Origin: Pseudomonadota bacterium
Lineage (GTDB): Bacteria; Pseudomonadota; Gammaproteobacteria; Burkholderiales; JAKAFK01
Reading direction: 5' to 3'
NCBI GenBank assembly: GCA_021817985.1
Contig: JAKAFK010000014.1
Location: forward strand, 1 to 64,000
DNA length: 64,000 nt
A model generated the notes under the pieces. That model was not told the DNA's origin. It worked only from the letters and a program-made list of their open reading frames with translations, and did not search any database. Shown here piece by piece: positions 33,281 to 63,987 of the stretch. How positions within the stretch are numbered: the stretch's first letter is position 1; every line of letters begins with the position of its first letter. The position numbers and the translations under genes were made by a program.

Positions 33281-34603
33281 ATGGAAAACTTTTGGCCATC
33301 CTGCGCGGCGCGACTGCAAAAGGAGCTCACGTCCCAGCAATTCAACACCTGGATCAAGCCGCTGACGGTCAAGGTTGCCGAGGGGTCGGTCGAGGTGACG
33401 GCGCCGAACCGTTTCGTGATGCAGTGGGTCAAGGACAAGTTTTTTTCACAGATTCAGCGGCTCGCCGAGGAGTATTTCGCGCGCCCGGTCCCGATCTCCC
33501 TCGTGCTCGGTGAGGGCCAGCCTGCCCCCGCCCAGCCGCCGCGGCCGCAGCCCAGCGCCGCGCCGGCCGCCCCCGCCGCAGACCATACGCGCCTCAACCC
33601 CGCCTTCACCTTCGACAGCTTCGTCGCCGGCCGCGCCAATCAGCTGGCGCGCGCCGCCGCCTTGCAGATCGGCGAGCATCTGGGCACGGCCTACAATCCC
33701 TTGTTCGTTTACGGCGGTGTCGGTCTCGGCAAGACGCATCTGATCCAGGCCATCGGCAACTTCGTCAAGGAGCAGCAGCACCACGCGCGCATCAGCTACA
33801 TTCACGCCGAACGCTACGTGTCCGATGTCGTGCGCGCATACCAGCACAAGGCCTTCGACGAGTTCAAGCGCTACTACCATTCGCTCGACCTGCTGCTCAT
33901 CGATGATATCCAGTTCTTCAGCGGGAAGACCCGGACGCAAGAGGAGTTCTTCTACGCCTTCAATGCCCTGATCGAGACCAAGAAGCAAGTCGTCATCACC
34001 TGCGATACCTATCCCAAGGAGATCGCCGGCATGGAAGACCGACTCATCTCCCGCTTCGGATGGGGGCTGACCGTGGCCATCGAACCGCCGGAATTGGAGA
34101 TGCGGGTCGCCATCTTGTTGAAGAAGGCCTGCGCGGAAAAAGTGAAACTCGACGAGAACGTCGCCTTCTTCATCGCCAAGCAGGTGCGCTCGAACGTGCG
34201 GGAACTCGAAGGCGCGATGAAGCGCGTCATCGCCTATGCCCGCTTCAACGGGCAACCGATCTCCCTGGAACTGACGAAGGAGGCGCTCAAGGACCTCCTT
34301 GCCGTGCAAAAGCGGCTGATCTCGATCGAGAATATCCAGAAGACGGTGGCCGACTACTACAAGATCAAGGTGGCCGAGATGTATTCCAAGAAGCGATCGC
34401 GCAACATCGCCCGCCCGCGCCAGATGGCCATGGCGCTCGCCAAGGAACTCACGCAGCATAGTCTTCCCGACATCGGCGATGCCTTCGGCGGCCGCGACCA
34501 CACGACCGTCTTGCATGCCTGCCGCAAGATATCCGAGCTCAAGAAGGACGATCCGGGCACGGCGAAGGATTTCGCCCTCCTCTTGCAAGTGCTGACCAGT
34601 TGA
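33281..34603 (+). CDS. dnaA: Chromosomal replication initiator DnaA
   Basis: AAA+ initiator that binds DnaA boxes and melts oriC. 440 residues, slightly shorter than E. coli because the domain II linker (residues ~88-105, Pro/Ala rich) is short. Domain I starts [14 protein letters not shown]; domain III has Walker [16 protein letters not shown] and Walker [15 protein letters not shown]; domain IV ends with the DNA-binding signature [16 protein letters not shown]. Divergent from rpmH, adjacent to dnaN: the standard origin layout. Confidence 0.99.
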
Positions 34604-34793
34604 AGACCTGTGTACAGAATGGGGATAACTGCCCTTCCAGGAACGGCGCCGGAAATGATCCACAATCCGTCCACAGGCTATACCGGCGCTCCCCACCCCC
34701 GAGGAAGCCATCTTCTTCCTTGATTAACAAAGAGAAATTTTTGCTATACACTTATCCCCTGCGCCTTAATTATCTATGTTTAGGTAAAAAACA
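34604..34793. other. Candidate oriC (dnaA-dnaN intergenic region)
   Basis: 190 bases with DnaA-box-like 9-mers: TGGGGATAA (34620-34628, one mismatch on the reverse strand), TGATCCACA (34656-34664, one mismatch) and TTATCCCCT (34752-34760, two mismatches), plus an AT-rich run from about 34719 to 34793 that could be the unwinding element. An additional box lies upstream of dnaA at 33203. The location is typical; no perfect TTATCCACA was seen. Confidence 0.55.
34720..34750 (+). promoter_or_regulatory. Candidate dnaN promoter
   Basis: Extended -10 TGCTATACA (TATACA at 34745-34750) with TTGATT (34720-34725) 19 bases upstream, about 44 bases before the dnaN ATG, inside the AT-rich part of the candidate origin. 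Confidence 0.45.
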
Positions 34794-35903
34794 ATGATTC
34801 TATTGGAAACGAACCGCGATGCGCTGCTGCGGCCACTGCAGGCGGCAGTGGGCATTGTGGAGCGCCGCCACACCCTCCCCATTCTCTCCAATGTCCTGAT
34901 CGCCCGGGTGTCCGACCGCCTGGATTTCGTCGCCACCGACCTGGAGATCCAGATCGCCGTCAGCGCCCCGGCCGAACCCGGGCGACCGGACTTTGCCATC
35001 ACCGTGTCGGCCAAGAAGTTGCAGGACATCTGCCGCGCCCTGCCGGAGGATACGCCGGTGGTGCTCGAGGCCGTGGATTCCAAGGTCACGGTGCGGGCCG
35101 GCCGAAGCCGCTTCAGTCTGCAGACGTTGCCCGCAGACCATTTTCCGCGGCTCGCACCGCTCAACGACCCGGTCGCGACACTCCGGCTCACGGAGCGTGA
35201 ACTGAAACGGGCGCTCGGTCTGGTACAATACGCAATGGCCCAGCAGGATATCCGCTACTACCTCAACGGCGCGCTGCTCGTGGTCAGTCCGCAAGCCTTG
35301 CACGTGGTGGCCACGGACGGCCATCGTTTGAGCTTTGCGAGCGTGCCGGTTTCGGAGCAGGCCGTGGTCCCGCACGAGGTGATCCTGCCGCGCAAGACCG
35401 TCCTCGAAGTCTCCAAGCTGCTGGCCGACAGCGAGAATCCCGTGAGCCTCGAAATCGGGACCTCGCAGGTCAAGCTGACCTTCGGCAACACGGAACTGGT
35501 CAGCAAGGTCATCGACGGCAAGTTTCCGGACTACACGCGCGTGATTCCGACGGCCTTGGACAAGCACATCGACGTTTCCCGCGAAGCCTTGCTGCATGCG
35601 CTGCAGCGCGCCGCGATCCTGTCGAACGAGAAGCTCAAGGGGGTGCGCCTGGTGCTCACCGACGGGTCGCTGCGGGTGATTTCCACCAACAGCGAGCAGG
35701 AAGAGGCGCAGGAAGAACTGGAGGTCGCCTATCAAGGCGAGTCCCTCGACATCGGGTTCAATGTGACCTACCTCCTCGATGTGCTGACCAACCTGTCGGC
35801 GACCGAGGTGCAATGTGCGTTCGGCGATGCCGGCGCCAGCGCGCTCATCACGTTGGCCGAGGAACCGAATTTCAAGTATGTGGTCATGCCCATGCGCATT
35901 TGA
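34794..35903 (+). CDS. dnaN: DNA polymerase III beta sliding clamp
   Basis: Ring-shaped processivity factor, 369 residues, normal length. The start MILLETNRDALLRPLQAAVG and the first-domain motif RRHTLPILSNVLI are typical; YYLNGALLVVSPQALHVVATDGHRLS marks domain II (given here as motif within residues ~155-182), and the C-terminus ends YVVMPMRI, the conserved end of proteobacterial clamps. It is followed directly by a parS site and gyrB rather than recF. Confidence 0.98.
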   Translation: MILLETNRDALLRPLQAAVGIVERRHTLPILSNVLIARVSDRLDFVATDLEIQIAVSAPAEPGRPDFAITVSAKKLQDICRALPEDTPVVLEAVDSKVTVRAGRSRFSLQTLPADHFPRLAPLNDPVATLRLTERELKRALGLVQYAMAQQDIRYYLNGALLVVSPQALHVVATDGHRLSFASVPVSEQAVVPHEVILPRKTVLEVSKLLADSENPVSLEIGTSQVKLTFGNTELVSKVIDGKFPDYTRVIPTALDKHIDVSREALLHALQRAAILSNEKLKGVRLVLTDGSLRVISTNSEQEEAQEELEVAYQGESLDIGFNVTYLLDVLTNLSATEVQCAFGDAGASALITLAEEPNFKYVVMPMRI

Positions 35904-35919
35904 TGTTCCACGTGGAACG
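35904..35919. promoter_or_regulatory. Second parS site
   Basis: TGTTCCACGTGGAACG differs from the Pseudomonas-type parS (TGTTCCACGTGGAACA) at one terminal base. It begins right after the dnaN stop codon, upstream of gyrB. Confidence 0.8.
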
Positions 35920-35935
35920 TCCTTTTCGCGCATGA

Positions 35936-38482
<2,547 letters not shown>

Positions 38483-39607: not shown

Positions 39608-40476
39608 GCCGCCAAGGCTGCTGTCGTCTTCCACGGTTTCGCGGGTTTCATTGCCGCCCGATTCGTCTGACCTGAATCGAGCTGAAAATTCTGCCGGCAT
39701 CTGGTGACCCAGCGCGCTGTGCGGCCGGTTCTCCTTGCCGTCACGACGCCGGGCGGCGATCAGTATGCGCGCTTCCGCCAAGCCGGTAAACCAGTGCTCG
39801 TTCAGGCATTCGTCCCGGAACCTCCCGTTGAAGCTCTCGAGATAGGCATTCTGCGCCGGCTTGCCCGGCTCGACGAGCTTGAGTCGCACGCCATTGCGAT
39901 AGGCCCACTCCACTGGTCGAGCGCGTGCCCGGTGAACTCCGACCTCTGGTCGATCCGGAGCGCAGCCGGCAGGCCGCGACTTCGTGCCGCCTGGTCCAGC
40001 ACCCGGGTCACACGCTGACCGCTGATGCCATGGTCCGCCACGATGTCGATGAACGCCTTGGTGTAGTCATCGACGATGGTCAGCGCCTTGATCCGTCGCC
40101 CGCCTGCCAAGGCATCCGAGACCGAGTCCATCGACCATTCCGCATTCGGCCCGCTGGGCCATTGCGGCTTCTCCCGGTCCACGGCCACGCCGTGACGCGA
40201 GCGGCGGCGCATCAGGGCCTGTTCTACAATTCGCCCTTGCAGGGCCGCATGCTCAGACTGTGCCTTGGCCTCATGATGCAGTACGATACGGGAAACGCCC
40301 ACAAGCGCCGCAGGCGCGGCGCTTTCGGCCCAAGCGCTGACCTTTAGCGCTTCCGTATCCAGGATCGACTCGGCCAGGAGGCGCTCGAGCCTGGCATTCT
40401 CGGCATCCAGCGCCTTCAACCGCCTGGCGTTCAGACGGGGCCCGCTTCCGCGTCGTCGTTGAATCTCGATGACCAC
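39608..40476 (-). mobile_element. Decayed IS3-family insertion sequence
   Basis: Reading 5' to 3' on the minus strand: an OrfA tail (RRLKALDAENARLERLLAES, ILDTEALK), then part of OrfB's integrase core (EWSMDSVSDALAGGRRIKAL, VDDYTKAFIDIVADHGISG, ALRIDQRSEFTGHALDQW), then in another frame the rest (GVRLKLVEPGKPAQNAYLES, FNGRFRDECLNEHWF, NRPHSALGHQMPAEF). A frame break lies near 39905-39913, and the junction of OrfA and OrfB has lost most of the OrfB N-terminus. Catalytic Asp and Glu positions survive but sit in different frames, so it cannot encode an active transposase. Terminal inverted repeats were not found by eye. Confidence 0.82.
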
Positions 40477-56537: not shown

Positions 56538-56951
56538 GTGAAAGATATCAACATCAGCTTATCGGGGCTCGACTTGAGCTTCCGGATGGCGGGCAAGATT
56601 GCCGCCGCAGTCGCGGGAGAGATCGACGGCACGGAACCGGTCCTCGTGGCGTGGCACGACAAAGACAAGGCGAGGATGTCCCCGACGATCGAAGGCGGCG
56701 ACATTCATTCGCGGTGGCGCGATTATGGCGAGAGTCACGGCGGGCAGGTGGAGGTGGACGTCAACGGGGACTATGACTTTATTTTCGCCGCGGGCGAGGG
56801 CTTTGAAGGTCTCGGACACAGCCCATATGTCAACGTCCGCGGCGCGAGCGGTGAGGAATACGTCTGCCAACTGAGCGCGTTGCGCGATCCCACGCACCCG
56901 ACCGAAGAGGCCTGCGTGAAGCTTGAGGACACCGGCGAGCGCGGAGGCTAG
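56538..56951 (+). CDS. Hypothetical acidic protein
   Basis: 137 residues from GTG 56538, which has GAAGGAG upstream at good spacing. Acidic and rich in Gly/Asp/Glu; VLVAWHDKDKARMSPTIEGG, RWRDYGESHGGQVEVDVNGD and EYVCQLSALRDPTHP are conserved-looking blocks but no family is recognised. It lies about 430 bases upstream of the Wadjet operon and 195 bases after the preceding gene, so it is probably a separate unit. Confidence 0.6.
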   Translation: MKDINISLSGLDLSFRMAGKIAAAVAGEIDGTEPVLVAWHDKDKARMSPTIEGGDIHSRWRDYGESHGGQVEVDVNGDYDFIFAAGEGFEGLGHSPYVNVRGASGEEYVCQLSALRDPTHPTEEACVKLEDTGERGG

Positions 56952-57378: not shown

Positions 57379-58830
57379 TTGAGCCTCGATTATGCGACGC
57401 TGGGTGCCCTCAGGCGGAACCATCCGGCCTGGCGCCTGTTGCAGGCCGACTCGTCGCCGCTCGTCGCCAGCGTTTTGCACGCCGTGTTTGTGGCCCCCAA
57501 CGTCCGGGAGATGTCGCAAGCGGATCTCGCCGAAAAACTGGGGGACGTCTTGTACGGCTTGCGCCAAACGCTGGGCGAGGATGCTTTTCCCCGCACAGCC
57601 GCGCAGTATCTTGACGAATGGGCCGCCAACGACAAGGGATGGTTGCGCAAGTTTTACCCGCCGGGCTCCGACGAGCCCCATTTCGACCTGACCCCGGCGA
57701 CCGAAAAGGCGCTGACCTGGCTCGAGAGCCTGACGCAGCGGGCGTTTGTCGGCACCGAGTCGCGGCTGATGACGGTGTTCGACTTGCTGCGCCAGATGGT
57801 GCACGGCTCCGAAGCGGATCCGCAGGCGCGGCTGCGCGAATTGGAGAAGCGCCGCGCGGCCATCGATGCGGAAATGGAGCGCGTGCGGGCGGGCGAGATG
57901 GCGCTGCTGGACGAGACCGCCCTCAAGGACCGCTTTCAGCAGCTGGCAGGCACGGCGCGCGACCTGTTGTCCGATTTTCGCGAGGTGGAGCAAAATTTTC
58001 GTACGCTCGACCGCAGCGTCCGCGAGCGCATCGCCCTCTGGGAGGGAGGCAAGGGCGCCTTGCTCGAAAGCATTTTCGGGGAGCGCGACGCGATCGCGGA
58101 CTCCGATCAGGGTCGAAGCTTCCGCGCATTCTGGGATTTCCTGATGTCGCCGGCGCGCCAGGAGGAGCTGTCGAGCCTGCTCGAATCGGTTCTGGCCCTG
58201 CCGGCGATCCAGACGCTGGCGCCGGACGCGCGACTCAAGCGGATCCACTACGACTGGTTGGCGGCAGGCGAACACACGCAGCGCACGGTGGCCCTGCTTT
58301 CCATGCAGTTGCGCCGCTTCCTCGACGACAAGGCCTGGCTGGAAAATCGCCGCATCATGGAAGTGCTGCGCGCCCTCGAGGCCAAGGCGCTTGCCGTGCG
58401 CGAGACCCCGCCGCCGGGAGCGTTCATGGCGCTCGATGACACCGCCCCCGAAATCGCGCTGCCGATGGATCGCCCTCTTTATTCCCCGCCCATCCGCCCC
58501 AAGATCGAGGCCCAGGTGCTGCTGGCCGGGGAAGAAGACATCGAGGCGGCGGCCCTGTTCAGCCAGGTGGTTGTCGACAAGGCGCGGCTCGCCGCCCGGA
58601 TTCGACAGGCGCTCGCCGAACGCACGCAGATCACGGTGGCGGAACTGGTCACCCGTCATCCCCTCGAGCAAGGGCTTGCCGAGGTGATTGCGTACCTGGC
58701 GCTGGCGTCCGAAGCAGGCCCGGCGGTGTTCGAAGAGGATGTCCGTGAGCAGATCTCGTGGCAGGATGGCACCGGCCGGCGTCGTGCCGCGACGCTGCCG
58801 CGCGTCAGTTTCGTAAGGAGCCTGTCATAG
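57379..58830 (+). CDS. jetA: Wadjet subunit JetA (DUF3375, kleisin-like)
   Basis: First gene of a four-gene Wadjet anti-plasmid operon. About 483 residues from TTG 57379, giving MSLDYATLGALRRNHPAWRL, the usual JetA start; AGGA precedes it by eight bases. Helical, with PLVASVLHAVFVAPNVREM and SLTQRAFVGTESRLMTVFDL matching DUF3375. JetA is the MukF-like kleisin bridging the SMC JetC with JetB and JetD in this SMC-nuclease complex. The frame extends upstream to 57346 without homology. Confidence 0.93.
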   Translation: MSLDYATLGALRRNHPAWRLLQADSSPLVASVLHAVFVAPNVREMSQADLAEKLGDVLYGLRQTLGEDAFPRTAAQYLDEWAANDKGWLRKFYPPGSDEPHFDLTPATEKALTWLESLTQRAFVGTESRLMTVFDLLRQMVHGSEADPQARLRELEKRRAAIDAEMERVRAGEMALLDETALKDRFQQLAGTARDLLSDFREVEQNFRTLDRSVRERIALWEGGKGALLESIFGERDAIADSDQGRSFRAFWDFLMSPARQEELSSLLESVLALPAIQTLAPDARLKRIHYDWLAAGEHTQRTVALLSMQLRRFLDDKAWLENRRIMEVLRALEAKALAVRETPPPGAFMALDDTAPEIALPMDRPLYSPPIRPKIEAQVLLAGEEDIEAAALFSQVVVDKARLAARIRQALAERTQITVAELVTRHPLEQGLAEVIAYLALASEAGPAVFEEDVREQISWQDGTGRRRAATLPRVSFVRSLS

Positions 58831-59432
58831 AGACCCCCTCCCCACCATCGCCTTCCCTTTCCCTGCCCGTGATCGCGCTGATGAAGGGCATCGTCTATCG
58901 GGACGCGGATGGCGCGCTCTGGAAGGACCTTCTGTCCTTGCAGGCCCGCGTGCGCGAATATGTCGCCGTGCTCGGGCTGGAACTGCTGATCGACGAAGCC
59001 GAGGGCTATGCCTTCTTGCGCGCGCGGCCTCCCGAGGAGGGGGTGCCGCCGCTGCCGCACCTTGTTCCGCGCCGCGCGCTGTCGTTCCCCGTGAGCCTCC
59101 TGGCGGCGCTGCTGCGCAAGAAGCTGGCGGAGTTCGACGCGGGGGGAGCGGATACGCGACTGATCCTGAGCCGCGACGAGATCCTCGAGCTCATCCGGGT
59201 GTTTCTGCCTGCAGGAACCAACGAGGCGCGCCTCGTCGACCAGGTGGATGCGCATATCAATAAGATGGTCGACCTGGGGTTCGTCCGCCGCTTGAAAGTG
59301 CCCGGCGGGGACTCGGCTTTCGAGGTCCGCCGGATCCTCAAGGCGTTCGTTGACGCGCAGTGGCTGAACGAGCTGGATGAGCGCTTGTCGGCGTACTGCG
59401 CAGGCCTGGACGCCGCGGAGGCGGCCGAATGA
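58827..59432 (+). CDS. jetB: Wadjet subunit JetB (DUF4194, MukE-like)
   Basis: About 201 residues, winged-helix KITE-type subunit that binds the kleisin Jet[54 protein letters not shown] and [20 protein letters not shown] are DUF4194 hallmarks. No canonical start lies at the expected place: AAGGAG (58815-58820) faces ATA at 58827 overlapping the jetA stop. In-frame alternatives are ATG 58758 (inside jetA, with 22 non-homologous residues), GTG 58869 and ATG 58881. The stop overlaps the jetC ATG. Confidence 0.85.
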
Positions 59433-62400
59433 TGCGCGAGGCTGAACTGGACTTCGCGGCGAGCGACGAACAGGCGGGTTTCCGCCTGCACCGCCTGGAG
59501 GTCTACAACTGGGGCACCTTCGACAAGCGGGTTTGGGCCTTGGCGCCCAACGGCGAGAATGCGCTGCTGACCGGCGACATCGGTTCCGGGAAATCGACCT
59601 TGGTCGACGCGGTCACCACCTTGCTGGTGCCCGCCCATCGCATTGCCTACAACAAGGCGGCAGGCGCGGAGGCGCGGGAGCGGACATTGCGCTCCTACGT
59701 GCTCGGGCACTACAAGTCGGAGCGCGCGGATGGCGGGTGGGCGGCTAAGCCGGTCGCCTTGCGCGATCACAACGCATACTCGGTCATCCTCGGGGTGTTC
59801 CGCAACAGCGGCTTCGACAAGACCGTCACGCTCGCGCAAGTGTTTTGGCTCAAGGACGCCCAAAGCCAACCGGCGCGCCTGTATGTGGCGGCCGAGGAGA
59901 CCCTTTCCGTCTCCCGGGACTTCGCAGGCTTCGGAAGCGACATCAACGACCTGCGCAAGCGGCTGCGCCAGCGCCGCGGGATCGAGTTGTTCGACAGTTT
60001 CCCGCCCTATGGCGCCTGGTTCAGGCGCCGCTTCGGCATCGACAACGAACAGGCGCTCGAACTCTTCCATCAGACCGTGTCGATGAAATCGGTGGGCAAC
60101 CTGACCGATTTCGTGCGCGACCATATGCTGGAGGCCTTTGACGTCGAGCCCCGGATCGAGGCCCTCATCCACCATTTCGAGGACCTCAACCGGGCCCATG
60201 GGGCTGTGCTCAAGGCCAAGGACCAGGTTTCACGGCTCAAGCCGCTGGTGGAGAAAACTGACGAACACGCGCGCCTGAAGGGCGAGCTCCACGAACTGGC
60301 CGGCGCACAGGAGGCGCTGGAAGCCTGGTTTGCGCAGCAGAAGGCGGAGTTGCTCAGCCAGCGACTCGGCGCCTTGGGCGTCGAGCATCAGCGCGGCGCA
60401 GCCCGGCTGCAGGTGCTCGAGCAGTCCCGGCGCGAGCAGACGGATCGGCGCGATCAGATCAAGCAGGACATTGCCGCGCAAGGCGGGCTCAGGCTCGCTT
60501 CCCTGGCCGCGGAGATTGCCGCCCGGGAGGAAGAGAAGGGAAGACGACAGGCCCGGGCGCAGCGCTATGGAGAACTCGCGCGGGAAATCGGTCTCGCGCC
60601 GGTCACCGGGCCCGAGCGCTTCGTCACCAACCGCGGCGTGTGCGAGACGCTTGAGCGCCAGCTGCGCGAGAAGGAGGCGGAAGCGCAGAACCGGCACAAC
60701 GAAGCGGGCGTGGACTTCACCACGCTGAAGCGGGAGCATGCTGCGCTGCAGGCGGAACTCGCCGGCTTGCGGTCGCGGCGCAGCAACATCGACGAGGCGC
60801 AGGTGCTGATCCGCCGAGCCTTGTGTGGTGCTCTTGGGGCCGATGAAGAGGAACTGCCCTTTGCCGGGGAACTCATCCAGGTGAGGCCCGAATGCGCCCA
60901 ATGGGAAGGCGCGGCGGAGCGGCTGCTGCACAACTTCGGGCTGTCCCTCCTGGTGCCGGACCGGCACTATGGCCTGGTCGCCGAATGGGTGGAGCGAACC
61001 CATTTGCGCGGGCGTCTCGTGTACTTTCGCGTCCGTGACGGGATCGCGCCCAGCCTGGCCCCCACGCAGCCGGGCTCCCTGGCGAGGAAGCTCGCCGTCA
61101 AGCCCGATTCGCCGCTGTACGGCTGGCTCGAACAGGAATTGGCGAAGCGCTTCGACTACGTGTGCTGCGAGTCGCTGGAACAATTGCGCCGCGAGCGTCA
61201 GGCCATCACGCCGGCCGGCCAGATCAAGGGTGGCGGCGAGCGTCATGAGAAGGACGACCGATATGCGCTGGACGATCGCAGCCGGTACGTCCTGGGCTGG
61301 ACCAATGCCGGCAAGATCGCCGCCCTCGAGACGCGCGCGGCTACCCTGCAGGAGGGCATGCACGCCGTGTCGAGGCGGATCGCGGCCGCGCAGTCCGCGC
61401 TCAAGGAGAGCCAGGAGAGCATCATCCGCCTGGCGCGCATCAGCGAGTTCCGGGACTTCCAGGAACTGGACTGGCAGTCGCTGGTGGCCGAGATCGCCCG
61501 GCTGGAGACGGAAAAGAAAGCGCTGGAGACGGCCTCCGATCAGCTGCAGCTGCTCACGCAGCAATTGGCCTCGCTGGAAGACCGGCTTCGCCAGACCGAG
61601 CAGGATTGGCTCGCACGCACTCAGGAGCAGGCCCGCCGTGAGGAACGACAGGCCGACTTGCGCGCCGCGGCCGCCGATTGCCGGGCCAAGATTGCAACCC
61701 TCGACGAGTCCGTCCGAGGCCGCCGCTTCGCCCAACTCGATGCCCTGCGCGTGGAGGCCCTGGGAAGCGAAGCCCCAACGCTCGAGAACATCGACAACCG
61801 CGAGCGCGAGATGGGCAAATGGCTGCACAGGCGCAGGAGCACCCTGGAAGAACGGATCCAGCGGGTGCGCGAGCGCATTCTCGACGGCATGCGGACCTAC
61901 AGCACGGCCTATCCCCTGGAGACGCAGGAGGTGGATGTCGCAGTGGAAGCGGCGCACGAGTATCGGGGCATGCTGGAGCGCCTGGAAGCGGACGATCTTC
62001 CCCGCTTCGAAACGCGGTTCAAGGAATTGCTGAACGAGAACACGATTCGCGAGGTCGCCAACTTTCAATCGCAGCTCGCGCGCGAGCGCCAGACCATCAA
62101 GGAACGGATCGAGCGCATCAACCAGTCGCTGCGCCAGATCGACTACAATCCCGGCCGCTACATCGAGCTGGAGGCCCAGCCGAGCCCCGATGCGGAGATC
62201 CGGGATTTCCAGAGCGAGCTGCGCGCGTGCACCGAGGGCAGCCTGACCGGTTCCGAGGACGCCCAGTACTCGGAGGCGAAGTTCCTGCAAGTCAAAGCCA
62301 TCATCGAGCGCTTCCGTGGGCGCGAGGGGCAGGGCGAGATCGACCGGCGCTGGACGCGAAAGGTCACCGACGTGCGCAACGGCTTCGTGTTCGCCGCCGC

Positions 62401-62800
62401 CGAGCGCTGGCGCGAGGACGGCCGGGAATATGAACACTACACGGACTCCGGCGGCAAGTCGGGGGGGCAGAAGGAGAAGCTCGCCTATACCGTGCTGGCG
62501 GCCAGCCTTGCCTACCAGTTCGGCCTGGAATGGGGCGAGGTGCGCTCGCGCAGCTTCCGCTTCGTCGTCATCGACGAGGCCTTCGGGCGCGGCTCGGACG
62601 AATCCGCCCGCTTCGGGCTTGAACTCTTCCGGCGGCTCAACCTGCAGCTCCTCATCGTCACCCCGCTGCAGAAAATCCATATCATCGAGCCTTATGTGTC
62701 CAGCGTCGGCTTCGTGCACAACGAGGCGGGGCTTGACTCGCGCCTGCGCAACCTCACGATCAAGGCATACCAGGCGGAGAAGGCGTTGCGGCGCGCATGA
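59429..62800 (+). CDS. jetC: Wadjet subunit JetC (MukB/SMC-like ATPase)
   Basis: About 1123 residues. The ATPase head is split: Walker [20 protein letters not shown] at residues ~48-66, and the C-terminal half has [14 protein letters not shown] (signature, ~1007-1020) and [17 protein letters not shown] (Walker B, ~1040-1056). Between them lies a long coiled coil (~250-900) with a hinge-like segment around 490-590 ([30 protein letters not shown]). As in known Wadjet systems, it is expected to extrude DNA loops using ATP. ATGA overlap with jetB and with jetD. Confidence 0.94.
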
Positions 62801-63987
62801 GCGATTGGACGACGGTGAGCACCCTGCGGGCGAAGGTCCTGCGGGACTGGATGCGCGGGCACCTGCTGGCGGGGCTATTGGGAGAGGACGACCGCTATCC
62901 GTGGCGGATTCCGCTTCAGGGTCCGGCATCCAGGGAACTGGCGGAGCGTTTCGACGACGTGCGCGCCTGGGCGCGTGCGCTGATCGACGGCGCCAAGGCG
63001 GGCGAGGGCCTGGGCTATCGTCTGGAGATGCGCGAGTTCAGCCCCCGCAGCCTCGGACGCAATGAGCTGCCGGTGGCGGCCTGGCTCGATGGCCCGGCGG
63101 ATGCCCTCGCGCTCATCGGCAAGCGCCGTGAGGCCGCGCGCTTCGAGGCGCTTGCCGAGGAGATCCTGGCGGCCTTTCCGGGCTTGCGCCCTTGGCTTGT
63201 CAGGAAACCGTTGCGTGTGCTCGATCAGGCCGAGGACTGGCCGCGGCTCCTGGCCGTGCTCGGGTGGATCCTCGATCATCCCGGTTGTGGCCTGTTCGTG
63301 CGGCAGATCGACCTGCCCGGCGTGCACAGCAAATTTGTCGAGCGCCATCGGGGCCTGCTGTCGGAACTTCTGGACGCATTGCATGCGCCCACCTTTGACC
63401 CGGCAGACGGCGGCGGAGCCCGCTTCGAACGACGCTACGGATTTCGCTCCAAGCCCGTCCTCATCCGCTTTCGGCTGCTGGGAAGCAGCGTGCAGGGACT
63501 CACCGACCTGTCGGTGCCCGCCGACGAATTCGGTCGCATCGACCTGCCGGTCCAGCGCGTGTTTATGACCGAGAACGAGATCAATTACCTCGCCTTTCCG
63601 GCGGTCGCGGGCAGCGTCGTCATCTTTGGCGCGGGCTATGGTTTCGAAGCCTTGGCGCAAGCCGCCTGGCTTCATCACTGCGAGTTTTTTTATTGGGGGG
63701 ACATCGATACCCACGGCTTCGCCATTCTGAACAGCCTGCGCGGGTATTTTCCTCATGCCCGCTCACTGTTGATGGATCGCGCCACGCTGCTTGCCCATCG
63801 GCCGCTCTGGGGGCGGGAGGCGTCGCCCACGCGACGGGCGCTTGACCGCCTGCGGCCGGAGGAGGCCAGTCTATTCGACGACTTGCGCAACGATGTCATG
63901 GCGCCGGCGGTGCGCCTGGAACAGGAGCGCATCGCTTTCGGGCGCGTGCTGGAGGCGCTCGCCCCCTTGTCGGTCAGCGCGGGATAG
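62797..63987 (+). CDS. jetD: Wadjet subunit JetD (DUF3322/DUF2220, Toprim nuclease)
   Basis: About 396 residues. The N-terminal half is DUF3322 ([39 protein letters not shown]). The C-terminal half is the Toprim-like nuclease: acidic residues in [12 protein letters not shown] (E259/E261) and the D302-x-D304 pair in [14 protein letters not shown], with [10 protein letters not shown] downstream. JetD cuts closed circular DNA once JetABC loop extrusion stalls. It ends 13 bases before the window edge, so the operon is complete. Start overlaps jetC by four bases. Confidence 0.94.

Follow-up and report, generated by a model that had tools for sequence, protein, structure and literature searches.

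The question raised by this locus is whether the four genes at 57379-63987 form a complete, plasmid-restricting Wadjet system, and whether their position near the replication origin is unusual for a defence operon. The locus was analyzed in the window, meaning the whole stretch of 64,000 nucleotides studied here, which belongs to a contig of 68,631 bases in total that runs past the window end; the source genome is a draft of 184 contigs with 96% completeness. Four contiguous, co-directional open reading frames were found in the order jetA-jetB-jetC-jetD (Table 1). Pfam searches recovered all of the expected profiles (DUF3375, DUF4194, JetD_C and DUF3322), and the four proteins matched the PADLOC type I Wadjet models across nearly the whole model length, which bears out the original prediction of a complete jetABCD in this order, on this strand and at these coordinates. 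Judged from the sequence, the locus is almost certainly a complete chromosomal type I Wadjet (JetABCD) operon. It is a further member of a well-studied family and as such holds little surprise; relatives, too, have complete operons with jetABCD in this order. A search of the whole genome found one JetD gene only. NCBIfam contained no useful family for the four Jet proteins.

Table 1. Coordinates of the jet genes and of the context features in the window, with the supporting matches.
Feature	Coordinates	Strand	Length	Start	Evidence
jetA, kleisin subunit (DUF3375)	57379..58830	+	483 aa	TTG	PF11855 2e-163; PADLOC JetA1 PDLC00457 748 bits, model 1-478/480
jetB, KITE subunit (DUF4194)	58827..59432	+	~201 aa	uncertain	PF13835 2e-46; PF21980 MksE 4e-18; PADLOC JetB1 288 bits
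jetC, SMC motor subunit	59429..62800	+	1123 aa		PADLOC JetC1 1613 bits, positions 3-1119/1123; PDB 8dk2_C 6e-71, 8as8_A 5e-63
jetD, Toprim nuclease subunit	62797..63987	+	396 aa		PF09983 (JetD_C) 2e-56; PF11795 (DUF3322) 5e-55; PADLOC JetD1 484 bits
dnaA-dnaN-gyrB, origin-region marker (context)	33281..38482	+			Pfam
DUF5619 protein, left neighbour (context)	56538..56951	+			PF18505; 97% identical and syntenic at L024:8407-8817

The ATPase motifs and Toprim acidic residues, which had been described as intact, were all located. In jetC, the Walker A motif lies at 59573, the signature SGGQKEKL at 62459 and the Walker B motif at 62561, corresponding to residues 49, 1011 and 1045 of JetC. In jetD, TENE is at 63568 and GDIDTHG at 63697. 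TENE and GDID were unchanged in all eight relatives compared, and GDIDTHG was invariant up to T/S among 8 sequences; E259 of JetD aligns to E248 of the solved E. coli JetD, the residue that is changed to alanine in 8q72. The start residue of JetA is the same as in relatives (V/M-SLDY). The jetB/jetC and jetC/jetD pairs each overlap by ATGA (4 nt). No internal stop or frameshift was present in the four jet frames, and both jetC and jetD, the genes in which a frameshift had been considered damaging to the prediction, were open over their full length.

The operon was compared with named systems. The type I Wadjets of E. coli GF4-3 (8as8/8q72) and P. aeruginosa (8dk1-8dk3) have the same gene order, domains, and ATPase and Toprim residues. 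However, these solved systems are only distant sequence relatives of this operon: the PDB sequence matches were to JetA, JetC and JetD/MksG chains, and no relative of JetB was found there by sequence. The IFDR motif at the N-terminus of JetB (PMC10586767) was not seen among the N-terminal residues read here. The MksBEFG system of C. glutamicum has the same four-subunit architecture and coexists with SMC-ScpAB, as is the case here, and its MksG entry 8b7f was the nearest solved relative of this JetD (1e-31; JetD(E248A) 8q72 gave 8e-14), but it belongs to another phylum, and polar and DivIVA association was reported for it (PMC7083940). SMC-ScpAB and MukBEF share the combination of SMC, kleisin and KITE (or MukE-like) subunits but are without JetD. 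The nearest relative found was the Wadjet of Betaproteobacteria bacterium bin_127, with identities of 76% for JetA, 66% for JetB, 76% for JetC and 63% for JetD; its JetC was the sister of this JetC in the tree with 100/100 support, and none of the tested flanking proteins was found near this Wadjet (locus L015).

The surroundings of the operon were then annotated. Pfam confirmed dnaA-dnaN-gyrB, which puts the start of the operon 19 kb downstream of gyrB and about 23 kb from dnaA; the latter distance agrees with the original prediction. The origin was located from the gene content together with a single near-consensus DnaA box (33203) immediately upstream of dnaA; a search for strict DnaA boxes gave one match, which is at chance level and does not map the origin. 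To the left of the DUF5619 gene are two genes for small proteins of unknown family, an L,D-transpeptidase gene, and genes for TetR and LysR regulators, followed by Ada/AlkA, an MFS transporter and a sulfate transporter, and then dnaA-dnaN-gyrB. To the right of jetD are an Lrp/AsnC regulator, leuA and a PAS-type sensor kinase. PADLOC also gave partial matches to the Lrp regulator and to a methyltransferase at 40469, which were taken as shared domains and rejected as defence genes. Of the flanking genes scanned on both sides, also past the window end, none was recognized as a mobile, integrase, IS or further defence gene, in agreement with the original prediction that no mobile element adjoins the operon in the window. 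ARAGORN found no tRNA in the window. The G+C content of the jet genes (0.66-0.67) is the same as that of the flanks, and their third-position G+C (0.80-0.85) resembles that of the neighbouring genes.

The history of the locus was examined in genome G001 (JAJYKK01), which is of the same genus and was the sole other genome of the family compared. Contig JAJYKK010000082.1 (L024; 9762 bases), which appears to be contig C16 of G001, is syntenic with the window at 48.7-57.09 kb with 81-88% identity. This syntenic stretch is followed by 80 unrelated bases and a jetD fragment, directly after which an IS607-like gene starts and the contig ends (fragment and gene start, L024:8966-9762). The fragment corresponds to window positions 63309-63863 with 90% DNA identity and 89% protein identity, but it is frameshifted and is without the first ~40% of the protein, and jetABC is missing at the syntenic site. 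On contig C66 of G001 synteny resumes at window position 64061, with Lrp and leuA. The element beside the jetD fragment encodes a 36-aa MerR-type helix-turn-helix and matches part of a plasmid at 78% on the DNA level; in this plasmid region the next gene has a weak, below-cut-off match to a TnpB/Cas12f-type domain; from these sequence features it was judged to be IS607-like. A second, different and complete jetABCD was found in G001 on contig C101 (L042:406-7119), away from the syntenic site. It is 64% (JetA), 61% (JetB), 59% (JetC) and 45% (JetD) identical to the operon in the window, and its JetC grouped in the tree with that of G047, a genome from another family, apart from the JetC of the window. 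The L024 sequence is a low-coverage (3.3x) metagenome contig, and the relevant G001 contigs are not joined to each other. On the same contig, the L,D-transpeptidase gene (L024:6367-7167) shows two stop codons within the aligned stretch, which may be assembly errors at this low coverage.

These data indicate that in G001 jetABC was probably deleted and the jetD fragment interrupted. The presence of a jetD fragment at the syntenic site from which jetABC is gone argues that the locus predates the species/genus split and was lost in the sister lineage. A recent acquisition of the operon as a mobile defence island was also considered. Wadjet is patchily distributed within the order, with JetA above the cut-off in 27 of 200 genomes (JetD was found in 29 of 397 genomes of the phylum), and the JetC of the window stands in the tree apart from that of the second Wadjet of the sister, both of which would fit such an acquisition. 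However, the jetD fragment at the same site in the same-genus genome belongs to the lineage of the window's jetD, with the high protein identity given above, the G+C content matches that of the neighbours, and neither a tRNA nor, among the flanking genes scanned, an integrase or IS accompanies the operon, so that a recent island is very unlikely. As to whether the locus is conserved or an island, it fits neither description, being no recent island and not stably maintained, since the sister holds a ruined jetD at the same site. The same-genus pair thus clearly illustrates how Wadjets turn over at one syntenic site of the chromosome: the operon is intact in one genome, and the other has a jetABC deletion, an IS607-like element and a different Wadjet elsewhere.

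The start codon of jetB was investigated by comparing the jetA/jetB junction with that of relatives. No in-frame ATG, GTG or TTG was found at the expected start; in relatives, jetB begins with an ATG about as far from the conserved core. Of the candidate starts, the ATA at 58827 is the best placed: it lies 6 nt after TAAGGAG, the strongest ribosome-binding site at the junction, and overlaps the jetA stop as ATAG (58815-58830). Two other in-frame codons, GTG 58758 and GTG 58869, are alternative starts. The ATA may be a rare start or an assembly error, or initiation may take place at one of the two GTG codons instead. The original prediction of overlapping genes throughout therefore held for jetB/jetC and jetC/jetD, whereas the jetA/jetB overlap depends on which start is used and is lost with GTG 58869. 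The lack of an ordinary start codon in the place of jetB, with only ATA behind a good ribosome-binding site, together with the ruin of the same locus in the sister species, could mean that the operon has decayed to a broken or silent remnant in which jetB is not properly initiated and the system is inactive. This reading is unlikely: all four frames are open and of full length, two in-frame GTG codons are left as possible starts, the third-position G+C is like that of the neighbours, and a one-base assembly error could also explain the ATA.

An intact operon would act by the mechanism established for the family. JetABC is a DNA loop extruder, and JetD cleaves small DNA circles once two motors meet, while plasmids larger than about 100 kb and linear DNA escape Wadjet (PMC10586767); the C. 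glutamicum MksBEFG controls plasmids and not chromosome folding (PMC7083940). Here, JetABC would form a dimer-of-dimers, loop-extruding SMC motor; on a small circle two motors would meet, which would activate JetD and lead to cutting of the plasmid, and the much larger chromosome would escape cutting. By homology with these systems, we infer that the operon would be expressed and would restrict plasmids in this organism.

We also considered whether the complex is a condensin. An SMC frame of 1184 codons is present on contig C183 of the same genome and ScpA is encoded on C82, and because SMC and ScpA are encoded elsewhere, the role of housekeeping condensin is unlikely to fall to the jet operon. 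In the profile searches the best models for all four genes were those of type I Wadjet, and not of MukBEF or MksBEF. MukBEF was rejected as unlikely on the intact jetD, the Wadjet model scores and the separate SMC and ScpA, as was a three-gene MksBEF without nuclease, since an intact jetD overlaps jetC by 4 nt. A further possibility is an auxiliary MksBEF-like condensin that lies near the origin because it acts on the chromosome, with the nuclease being secondary. The operon is indeed origin-proximal, JetB also matches the Pfam MksE family, and P. aeruginosa MksBEF is thought, from its citation in PMC7083940, to act on the chromosome. However, the full jetD with intact Toprim residues, the best-model assignments, the SMC and ScpA genes elsewhere, the patchy spread in the order and the loss of the locus in the sister make an auxiliary condensin highly improbable, and the Wadjet assignment is retained.

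The origin-proximal position had been regarded as less expected for a defence operon. The distance between the jet locus and dnaA was determined in 51 of the Wadjet-bearing genomes identified above through JetA and JetD, exclusive of the window's genome and its sister, and compared with uniform placement on the dnaA contig. The jet locus was within 50 kb of dnaA in 3 genomes (1.1 expected, p 0.10), within 100 kb in 5 (1.9 expected, p 0.04) and within 250 kb in 10 (3.3 expected, p 0.001), the last being 6 to 244 kb away. In G056 (L098, 5863-18219), a distant type I Wadjet directly follows the origin genes in the order dnaA-dnaN-gyrB-jetABCD, with jetA about 150 bases after gyrB. The position was thus not borne out as unexpected, and Wadjets close to the origin are nothing unusual in this group. 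HsdR (type I restriction), analyzed in the same genomes, was found 4, 4 and 8 times within 50, 100 and 250 kb, against 1.5, 2.5 and 4.5 expected (p 0.08 for the last), a weaker trend in the same direction, and several of the counted HsdR genes adjoin a jet locus (G149, G322, G375 and G418).

The origin-ward bias of Wadjet loci is exploratory, as the distances were picked once the data had been inspected, the genomes share ancestry, and hits of several query families were pooled. In the open-access literature searched, no report of a link between Wadjet position and the origin was found. A stronger proposal is that Wadjets are preferentially origin-proximal in proteobacterial chromosomes, more so than other defence genes, and that dosage, early replication or the cell position of the origin helps SMC-based plasmid surveillance. 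This proposal is tentative and rather doubtful, and the data fit a general origin-proximal defence-gene hotspot at least as well as a Wadjet-specific rule. If it were true, the operon in the window would be one case of an origin-proximal Wadjet rule, in which the operon at times lies directly behind dnaA-dnaN-gyrB. The suggested bias is easily testable on complete genomes. As a separate observation, HsdR was located 5 to 16 kb from dnaA in G033, G110, G341 and G418, which suggests a hotspot of defence genes close to the origin.
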